From: Bdellovibrionales bacterium | Lineage (GTDB): Bacteria > Bdellovibrionota > Bdellovibrionia > Bdellovibrionales > UBA1609 | Assembly: GCA_022450595.1 (NCBI GenBank) | Contig: JAKUPT010000017.1 | Coordinates: 1-50,415 of the forward strand | Direction of reading: 5' to 3' | Length of the DNA stretch: 50,415 nt | Part shown: piece by piece, positions 4,547 to 25,996 of the stretch | How the letters are laid out: each line of letters opens with the position of its first letter | Position numbering within the stretch: position 1 is the stretch's first letter | The notes under the pieces: model-generated | What the model was told of the DNA's origin: nothing | Databases searched by the model: none | The model's input: only the letters and a program-made list of their open reading frames with translations | Position numbers and translations under genes: made by a program

Positions 4547-5602
4547 TTGGGGCAATCTCGGGGGAGGGGTCAATTAGGGAAATTAAGCGCGCTGATTTGT
4601 ATTATTCTTTTCACATCTAAGCTTTGGGCATTTAATAATTGTTACTATCTTTTCCAGCCACACAATTTAACACAGTATTTTCATAGTTTAAGAGGAAGTC
4701 CGAGTCATAAAATCCATCAAGTTTTGTCTCAGGGGGGGCATTGGTTAAAAATTGATTCCAGTTTAGATATTATTTCTCATTTGCGCTACAGGGTTTGGCA
4801 GCCAAGTCGCGGTCAAAAGGTCAAGCAAGAGGTGGTGTTAATTGGAGGGCTTGGTCAGACAGCGGAGCGCTTTGATCAAAACTCAGAGTTTATGCGGCAA
4901 ATGACAAAAGCTGGTATCAAAGTTATTTTTTTAGAACTTCCAGGGCAAGGTCATACATCTATCTTACATGAGTTAGAAAATGGAAAATTTAAAAAGGTCT
5001 TACCATCAGAATTATTTCTTGTTTTGGACAGTGCTCTAGAGCAACTAAAGCAAAACAAAATCATTAAATCTAAAAAGTTTCAGATCATGGGGCACTCGTA
5101 TGGAGGATGGCTTCTAACAGAGTATCTCAACTATTCCAAAAGAATGGATATCAGTAAAGTGCACTTATTAGATACAGGGTTAAAGTCTTTTCACAATGAG
5201 GGTATGATGTATTGGCTTGATCCATTTTTTAGCATCAACCCTTTTTATAAAAGCTTTCGTAACCACTCTTTGACTCATTTCCTCAAGCAAATGCTTAAAA
5301 AAGATAAAGAGCATTATAAAAATGATCCACTAAAGCTTGATTATGCGGCTTCACTATATTTAGGAATTATGGATTATAATGCTTTATCAAAAGCTAAATA
5401 CATTTCTGATTTTTATAAAATGCGCGTTTTTATCGCTGAAAACACGGAGTTTGGGTCACACTTTAAAAACATGATTAAAGACTTTTATCGCAAATTAAAT
5501 GTTTTTGACAAAAAACTTATGATTTTAGAAGACAGTCCACATAATATATTTTTACATACACCCTCAGCAGGAAAAATTATTTCTGAAATTATAACCGATT
5601 GA
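4547..5602 (+). CDS. Secreted/membrane-anchored alpha/beta hydrolase
   Basis: VVLIGGLGQTAERFDQNSEFMRQMTKAGIKVIFLELPGQGHT...FQIMGHSYGGWLLTEYL (GHSYGG nucleophile elbow); N-terminal hydrophobic stretch; TTG start as called. Confidence 0.75.
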   Translation: MGQSRGRGQLGKLSALICIILFTSKLWAFNNCYYLFQPHNLTQYFHSLRGSPSHKIHQVLSQGGHWLKIDSSLDIISHLRYRVWQPSRGQKVKQEVVLIGGLGQTAERFDQNSEFMRQMTKAGIKVIFLELPGQGHTSILHELENGKFKKVLPSELFLVLDSALEQLKQNKIIKSKKFQIMGHSYGGWLLTEYLNYSKRMDISKVHLLDTGLKSFHNEGMMYWLDPFFSINPFYKSFRNHSLTHFLKQMLKKDKEHYKNDPLKLDYAASLYLGIMDYNALSKAKYISDFYKMRVFIAENTEFGSHFKNMIKDFYRKLNVFDKKLMILEDSPHNIFLHTPSAGKIISEIITD

Positions 5603-23708: not shown

Positions 23709-24362
23709 ATGAAAGAAAAGATACAGCTTTATTCCTTAGCCACTCCCAATGGTCAAAAAGTATCTATCGCATTAGAAGAAATGGAAATAGAGTACGTACC
23801 ACATAAAATTGACATCACAAAAGATGAACAATTTACAGATAAATTTATCAAAATCAATCCCAACTCAAAAATCCCAGCCATTGTGGACCCAAAGGCCAAT
23901 AACGGTAAAGACTTTAGCGTTTTTGAGTCAGGGGCTATTTTACTCTATTTGGCTGAAAAGTCTGGAAAGTTTTTATCTACAGACTCATTTATTAAAAATG
24001 AAACACTTCAATGGCTGTTTTTTCAAATGGCTGGAGTTGGTCCTATGTTTGGTCAATTCGGGCACTTTTACAAATACGCAAAAGATAAATGTGATGATCC
24101 ATATCCTACTGAGCGTTACGCTAATGAGACTAAAAGACTGCTTGGTGTATTAGAAAAAAGACTTGCTGATAGAGACTTTATTATGGGTACAGAGATCACA
24201 ATTGCCGACTTTGCAACCATGCCATGGGTTGATTGTTTAAGCCGATTTTATGAAGCTGATGACATATTAGAACTACAGAAATTTAAAAACGTAATGAGAT
24301 GGAAAAAAACAATACTTGATCGCCCAAAAGTACAAAAGGGCATGAATGTATGTCCTTTTTAG
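23709..24362 (+). CDS. Glutathione S-transferase (YghU/nu-class-like)
   Basis: LYSLATPNGQKVSIALEEMEIEYVPHKIDI...INPNSKIPAIVDPK...FESGAILLYLAEKSGKFL. Confidence 0.88.
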   Translation: MKEKIQLYSLATPNGQKVSIALEEMEIEYVPHKIDITKDEQFTDKFIKINPNSKIPAIVDPKANNGKDFSVFESGAILLYLAEKSGKFLSTDSFIKNETLQWLFFQMAGVGPMFGQFGHFYKYAKDKCDDPYPTERYANETKRLLGVLEKRLADRDFIMGTEITIADFATMPWVDCLSRFYEADDILELQKFKNVMRWKKTILDRPKVQKGMNVCPF

Positions 24363-25100
24363 ATATTGTTGTAGAAATTTAAATATTATTTAAACAAAAC
24401 ATACATCTTATTTTTTTAATAAAGTGTTACTTTAAAGATTGTAGCGAAGCTAGTTGCAGATCAAACAGGTGAAAGTCCTGTAAAGGCAATTAACTAATGA
24501 GCCTTTTAGCCTGAGTCCTTACACATTAAGGTGACTTAAAGTGTAAATGCGGACTGACAATGCAGTGAGAATGTTCGTTCTCATTGCAGGCAAAGGAGTA
24601 GGTTGTAGCAAATGCGAACCGGTAAAGCCTTAAGTTATATCTGTTGGGAACGAACGACAGATGGCTCAAAGAGGGTCGAGCAATTAAAAGCGAAGACTCA
24701 TACTGATGGTGAAGATTAGTTGTAGGCAACCATCAGCCTCTTTAGAAGGTCAAAGGACGACATGCTCTGAATGATGCGCAATAAAAGCTCGGAACCACTT
24801 GTTGGTCACAGAAGGGCTCTAACTTCTGTAAAGGCTATTGAACAAGTTGGTGCTGATATTAATTTGGTGCCAACAAAATCAACGGCCAATTCTAACCAGT
24901 GGGGCAGTTGAGGCTGCTAAGCCTGTAAAAGGGCGAGAGTCTCTGGAGTCGAGTTATTTATAACTCCTGTGGTGGTAATTAGGAAGATACTCTTGATTAC
25001 TAAATTAAAGGTCAACTTTTAAGACTGCATGTATGTATAGAGCATAAAAAACTTAAGTGTAGTTTTAAAAAGGAATATCTTAATTGAAATGCCAGCTCTT

Positions 25101-25133
25101 GAGCCGGTCTGGGGAAATCCCAATGGCAGGTTC
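25101..25133 (+). ncRNA. Group II intron domain V-like hairpin
   Basis: 33 nt: lower helix GAGCCGGUC/GGCAGGUUC with one G.A mismatch, 2-nt bulge (AU) on the 3' strand 9 nt from its end, upper stem UGGG/CCCA capped by GAAA(U). Confidence 0.72.
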
Positions 25134-25143
25134 TAAACCCAAA

Positions 25144-25198
25144 GGCAGCGGAACCATTAAGTACATAAAAATACTTGATGCGCCACTGCCTTTTTTTT
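25144..25198 (+). terminator. Intrinsic-terminator-like hairpin with T8 tract, in the position of domain VI
   Basis: GGCAG...CTGCC outer stem, inner ATTAAGTA/TACTTGAT stem, immediately followed by TTTTTTTT (25191-25198). Confidence 0.65.
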
Positions 25199-25222
25199 AT
25201 GATTTTTAAAAAGGAGAATTTT

Positions 25223-25996
25223 TTGGGGAAAGCAAAATTTGATTTTACGGACCAAGTCGTACTTGTAACAGGGGCTGCAATGGGAATTGGTCGCCAGGTT
25301 GCTGTGGATTTTGGTAAAGCTGGTGCTAAAGTAATTGTGTCAGATATTGATGCAGATAAGGCTCATGAAACAGTCAACCTTATTAATAAAGATCAAGGTG
25401 AGTCTATATTTATTAAATGTGATGTTTCAAAAGAAATGGACATAAAAAATCTTATTCAAAATATTATTGAAGAGTATGGACAATTGAACATAGCTTGTAA
25501 TAATGCAGGCATCGAGGGAACTGTTGCTCACATTGATCAGTGTTCCATTGAAAATTGGAACAATGTGATGCAGGTAAATTTAACCAGTGTGTTTTTATCA
25601 ATGAAATACGAAATACCAGAAATTCTCAAAGCCAAAGGTACAAAATCAATTGTAAATTTGTCTTCCATAGCCGGTCTTGTTGGTTTTGCTGGACTGCCGG
25701 CCTATGTGGCAAGTAAACACGGCGTGATTGGTCTTACTAAAAATGCAGCACTTGAATATGCCAATCAAAACTTAAGAGTGAATGCCATTTGCCCGGGGCC
25801 AATTAAAACGCCTATGTTGGATCGTATTACTCATAATAATCAAGATGAGGAAAAGGCTTTGTCGCAAGGAGTTCCATTAGGGCGTCTAGGTGATCCCGAA
25901 GAAGTGTCTTCTGCTATCTTATATTTATGCTCAGATCAAGCCAGTTATATTTCTGGTCAGGTTTTACCAATTGATGGTGGTTGGGTAACACAATAA
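25223..25996 (+). CDS. Short-chain dehydrogenase/reductase (SDR)
   Basis: VVLVTGAAMGIGRQVAVDFGKAGAKVIVSD...NNAGIEG...NLSSIAGLVGFAGLPAYVASKHGVIGLTK...PGPIKTPM. TTG start at 25223 with an AAGGAG RBS is preferred; the tracked start at 25175 lies inside the hairpin. Confidence 0.92.
   Translation: MGKAKFDFTDQVVLVTGAAMGIGRQVAVDFGKAGAKVIVSDIDADKAHETVNLINKDQGESIFIKCDVSKEMDIKNLIQNIIEEYGQLNIACNNAGIEGTVAHIDQCSIENWNNVMQVNLTSVFLSMKYEIPEILKAKGTKSIVNLSSIAGLVGFAGLPAYVASKHGVIGLTKNAALEYANQNLRVNAICPGPIKTPMLDRITHNNQDEEKALSQGVPLGRLGDPEEVSSAILYLCSDQASYISGQVLPIDGGWVTQ

Follow-up and report, generated by a model that had tools for sequence, protein, structure and literature searches.

A candidate stand-alone RNA gene of group II intron descent in the Bdellovibrionota

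What kind of element lies between the glutathione S-transferase (GST) and short-chain dehydrogenase (SDR) genes in the window, the whole 50,415-nucleotide stretch of a Bdellovibrionales genome analysed here? The two genes, at 23709-24362 (+) and 25222-25996 (+, probably starting at a TTG preceded by AAGGAG), are not stress genes of the classic kind, and they flank a region that a sequence-only reading had described as a group II intron-like RNA at 24441-25198, either an ORF-less intron depending on a protein supplied in trans or a domesticated, non-splicing descendant acting as a structured RNA. The host genome (a 3.06-Mb assembly, 97% complete) holds a single copy. From fold and alignment we place the whole ORF-less, group II intron-derived RNA gene at 24430-25198 (+), its 5' end being an estimate (sequence conservation starts at approximately 24437) and its 3' end being given by a T-run.

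Six-domain architecture of the window RNA

The assignment to group II is borne out by several measures. The sole Rfam match above cut-off in the window is RF02003 (group-II-D1D4-4; 24463-24613, +), with 73.4 bits versus a gathering score of 49; of the two kinds of model proposed as a check, the D1D4 model thus matched, and the domain V model RF00029 gave no match to the RNA even at E = 10. Positions 24429-25198 have a folding energy of -245 kcal/mol versus -200.5 +/- 6.5 for 20 dinucleotide shuffles (z = -6.9). The region is also free of protein genes as described, the ORF check having found no sizeable + strand ORF inside the RNA. An antisense 67-residue ORF in domain I (24526-24729, -) is most likely spurious.

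Ten full-length order-level sequences (the window copy and nine relatives), aligned by sequence only (alignment A4), yield a consensus that is the six-domain group II wheel, with domains I to VI in order around the centre. It comprises 255 pairs, with 93.8% of 2525 cells paired, and two-sided changes occur at 149 of these pairs versus 66 +/- 5 on shuffling and approximately 50 with slid partners. No measure was attained by any of 500 shuffles, and pairing falls to 37-45% when partners are slid; the slide control somewhat favours the structure because the structure was derived from A4 itself, and the excess of double changes is still large. Across 22 phylum-wide sequences, in an alignment fitted to the model, the domain V/VI region is 92.5% paired with 112 double-change cells versus 37 +/- 5, so that the helices of both domains stay supported at this distance.

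Domain I spans 24445-24791 (+) and is closed by a helix of 24445-24463 with 24772-24791; it is followed on the same strand by domain II (24792-24905), a short domain III (24910-24943) and domain IV (24945-25099), which contains no ORF. Most stems that had been proposed from the single sequence show two-sided changes: AGTCC/GGACT with TTACAC/GTGTAA (24514-24555), a stem of 11-12 bp at 24560-24588, TGATGG/CCATCA (24703-24736), ACAGAAG/CTTCTGT (24808-24829), GUUGGUGC/GUGCCAAC (24846-24874) and GGTAATTA/TGATTACT (24975-25000). The proposed ACTTGTT/AACAAGT stem gives way to another pairing, as the conserved partner of 24792-24806 is 24891-24905.

Group II domain V is recognised by an AGC or CGC triad, a 2-nt bulge and a GNRA-capped upper stem of 5 bp. 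In the window RNA domain V (25101-25133, +) reads GAGCCGGUC-UGGG-GAAAU-CCCA-AU-GGCAGGUUC, with an AGC triad that pairs with GUU, a 2-nt 3' bulge and one G.A mismatch. The earlier description of this hairpin was right in triad and bulge, which are present in the window and most other copies, and wrong in its cap, which reads GAAAU (or, with a closing G-U pair, AAA as a triloop) and is not a true GNRA tetraloop. Among the copies the upper stem has 4 bp and a GAAAU/GAAAA or AAA loop, to which the window copy adds its G.A mismatch; the order clade and most other copies have the triad AGC, some copies from family f12 have CGC, three have UGC and two have AAC. Beyond domain V, a hairpin at the domain VI position (25144-25190, +), without a bulged branch-point A, and a T8 run directly after it (25191-25198, +), by its sequence an intrinsic terminator, went unmentioned in that account and together (25144-25198) mark the 3' end.

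A decayed protein gene or a chance fold, for which the missing ORF speaks and nothing else, is refuted by the RF02003 match, the z-score and the covariation. Circularly permuted group II RNAs (PMC8637638) are likewise large bacterial RNAs related to group II introns, but the window RNA has the ordinary order from domain I to domain VI; this identity was rejected, as domain I at 24445 precedes domain V at 25101.

Relatives and descent

The related copies whose search the sequence-only reading had recommended do exist. In a DNA comparison, three genomes from the order of the window genome matched in part; their copies are full-length, ORF-less and pass RF02003, and that model scores above cut-off in the window copy and in each of the ten further full-length copies from the order. 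R1, a covariance model built on the 3' part, matched 12 of 141 genomes of the order, as well as further families of the phylum; a hit in one of the 12 (G106), a bare, ordinary-looking domain V beside integrase-like genes, was set aside. The broader model R2 extended this to 41 of 369 Bdellovibrionota genomes (~11%) in 23 genera; a few of the weakest matches are probably ordinary introns. The relatives (~40 of the 369 genomes) are ORF-less, 730-840 nt long and often at orthologous intergenic sites. Plasmids gave no match in a distant-mode comparison, and the domain V pattern was not found in viral contigs. RF02003 matches without an R1 match served as a contrast set: four of these (L105, L108-L110) were rejected as ordinary introns with RT-like ORFs carrying a YxDD motif, and L105, L109, L110, L113 and L114 score best to RF02005.

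A strict domain V pattern searched across the species-genome collection returned 17 stretches; apart from L081, L085 (Ca. Scalindua rubra) and L089, all of these come from Bdellovibrionota-type carriers. These three ORF-less introns may be the nearest relatives; they resemble the window RNA in exceeding the RF02003 cut-off, and share the domain V core GCCGUACUGGGGAAAACCCAACGUACGG with its sister families. They differ in having a long domain VI with a CUCUACUCG(A/G)C tail, in starting with GUGCG in the case of L085, in appearing by eye to sit at attC-like, integron-like sites, and in lying outside the Bdellovibrionota clade on an RNA tree that was rooted on them. The branching of that tree largely follows taxonomic family: it recovers the order clade, two groups of f12, and most of f14 and of f22; one f22 copy (L067) is placed with f14. 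Families f1 and f8 mix within the order, and therefore some transfer or lack of resolution remains. In one f12 genus (g83) paralogs occupy the same places in several species; two copies occur in G100 and several in G181.

At orthologous loci the RNA is 79-93% identical, compared with 62-76% for the region upstream of the promoter. This conservation beyond the flanks, together with strong full-length covariation and with promoters and boundaries kept across families (below), makes it very improbable that we are looking at the decaying, functionless remnant of a dead intron, a reading to which the patchy distribution (~11% of phylum genomes), the loss of domain V in G035 and the altered triad of a few copies would lend themselves. 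The G035 copy (L029, 3365-4104, -) is divergent, with most of domain V deleted and domain I well conserved.

Splice signals, reverse transcriptase and transcript ends

Group II introns are characterised by a GUGYG 5' end, a domain VI with a bulged branch-point A and a 3' AY, and exons bearing intron-binding sites (IBS). In the window family GUGYG is missing and GUUCG, GUUUG or similar stands in its place; GUGCG was seen in L085 and in the RT-encoding L105 and L109. The hairpin at the domain VI position has no bulged branch A, the A of its 3' strand being paired or in a C.A mismatch, and no 3' AY follows, the helix running into a T-run or unrelated sequence. A 5' exon with an IBS was likewise not found, as most of 19 copies have their predicted start (described below) a few bases from the 5' end of the intron.

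The protein that serves such introns is also missing from the window genome. No intron-encoded RT or maturase was found: domain IV has no ORF, and RVT_1 has zero matches in the whole 97%-complete assembly, in agreement with the RT absence noted earlier for the window. RVT_1 is missing too in G026, G035, G116 and other carriers. The argument from RT absence is not universal, because approximately half of the other carrier genomes have an RVT_1 gene of some kind.

Many copies appear to possess a promoter of their own. A sigma54 -24/-12 element of the form (C/T)GG(C/T)A(C/T)-N7-GC(A/T) (GG-N10-GC) lies upstream in 19 of 31 copies versus 0.19 expected from the element's rate in the same loci. The bearing copies come from five families (f1, f6, f8, f14, f22), within each of which the distance from element to RNA is nearly constant. 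For f14 and the order clade, transcription is predicted to start 15-17 nt before a conserved GCGA loop, that is, a few bases from the intron-like 5' G; in five of seven f22 loci (L063, L068, L069, L072, L073) the start falls 32-36 nt before that loop, 16-21 nt farther upstream than elsewhere, giving a short extra leader. Since predicted start and intron-like 5' end nearly coincide in most sigma54 copies, there would be no 5' exon there. All 28 carriers tested have rpoN, and no clear upstream activator motif emerged when the sigma54 copies were searched for one. Copies from f12 without sigma54 elements show by eye sigma70-like blocks (TTGNNN-16-TANNNT-like) at a corresponding spacing, 7 nt before the 5' G. 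Near the 5' end of the window copy there is neither a sigma54 -24/-12 element nor a convincing or consensus sigma70 promoter, the only candidate, not an established one, being a weak -10-like TAATAA at 24417-24422 (+); judged from its sequence, this copy seems to have switched promoter relative to its family. At the other end, 18 of 31 copies have a T-run after the terminal hairpin and 13 have none, compared with a background of ~7% in shuffles, suggesting that the domain VI position often became a terminator in relatives.

These features bear on whether the RNA is a group II intron without an ORF that remains able to splice or move with the help of a trans-acting maturase, the first of the two options originally offered. 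The retained architecture from domain I to domain VI and the domain V triad are compatible with it, as are the two copies in G100 and the several in G181, and elsewhere most ORF-less introns depend on a protein supplied in trans (PMC4424553). We regard it as improbable because the window genome and several carriers (G026, G035, G116 and others) lack RVT_1 and because the predicted start at the intron-like 5' end leaves no room for a 5' exon in most sigma54 lineages; GUGYG and the bulged branch A are absent as well, and copies occupy orthologous places across species. PMC4424553 names just one independent bacterial intron without an ORF, C.te.I1 of Clostridium tetani. It is like the window RNA in lacking an ORF and in residing in a genome without a related protein gene, but it lies in a gene and self-splices, whereas the window RNA lies between genes, shows no evident exons and belongs to a phylum-wide family.

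We therefore favour the second of the two options, domestication into a structured RNA that does not splice, which fits the data and the phylum-wide family, and estimate at roughly 0.7 the probability that the window RNA is the product of a gene of its own whose ancestor was a group II intron. It shares with group II introns (RF02003, clan CL00102) a domain I-IV core above cut-off, the six-domain wheel and a domain V with AGC triad and 2-nt bulge; it differs in lacking an RT ORF, GUGYG and a bulged branch A in domain VI, and many of its relatives differ further in having a promoter right at the 5' end and frequently a 3' terminator. Because several defining intron tests failed, we call it group II-derived and do not file it as a group II intron. 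With no protein gene, exons or splice signals, and with an own promoter in relatives, often beside stress genes, it looks like a mobile ribozyme that became a stand-alone bacterial RNA.

Neighbouring genes and possible role

Most of the 31 loci have, within ~500 nt, a following gene in the same orientation, which often lies 8-60 nt past the hairpin and has a ribosome-binding site of its own. By Pfam assignment, in raw counts, Hsp20 adjoins three copies and CBS proteins adjoin several; Hsp70, archease with RtcB, FtsH, Usp, BON and phosphoribosyltransferase/erythromycin-esterase occur around others. Such an arrangement invites the main rival to a stand-alone gene, namely a cis-acting 5' leader of ~770 nt in which conditional termination at the domain VI-like hairpin controls the next gene and the group II fold is the sensor; the T-run in 18 of 31 copies and the recurrence of Hsp20 and CBS genes would suit it. 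We consider this possible, although unlikely, given that the next gene is not the same in all lineages and has a convergent orientation in G082, G051 and L070, that the CBS gene is cut in G116 with the RNA intact, and that a terminator alone has no need of a six-domain core and a retained domain V. In that G116 locus (L024) the downstream CBS gene, a short N-terminal remnant, lies just past the RNA end at 5411.

On the stand-alone reading, the RNA is retained by its hosts, does not splice and probably has a link to stress. The group II-derived RNA would no longer splice; in most relatives it would be made under sigma54 (stress) control and act, mainly in trans, as a structured RNA or RNP in a stress response, and read-through of the terminator would perhaps also feed the next gene, often that of an Hsp20 or CBS protein. 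The fullest version of this proposal, a host-domesticated, exonless group II ribozyme serving as a trans-acting, stress-regulated non-coding RNA kept phylum-wide without an RT, is offered tentatively. OLE RNA, which PMC10898510 associates with stress adaptation, is also a large bacterial non-coding RNA, but no relation to it in sequence or fold was found and the analogy is functional only.

Rfam has no family for this RNA beyond the generic RF02003, and we found no report of such an RNA in the open-licence literature on Bdellovibrio group II introns or exapted group II RNAs. More than 30 copies persist across the phylum, in several genomes without an RT, with their own promoters and terminators. 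The trans-acting spliceosomal RNAs are believed to descend from group II introns. If our reading holds, this is a self-splicing intron that became an autonomous bacterial RNA, and a question for which the spliceosomal RNAs of eukaryotes have usually supplied the arguments becomes testable in bacteria; a trans-acting role would make it a bacterial parallel to the step from group II intron to spliceosomal RNA.

Two arrangements among the relatives may be recorded here. In L057 and L060 the genes for archease and the RNA ligase RtcB come directly after the RNA, and these loci also have a divergent CBS gene and one for Hsp70. In G100 (L025, 4444-6707, -) the two RNA copies are separated by 1.4 kb; an Hsp20 gene follows one of them and a CBS gene the other.
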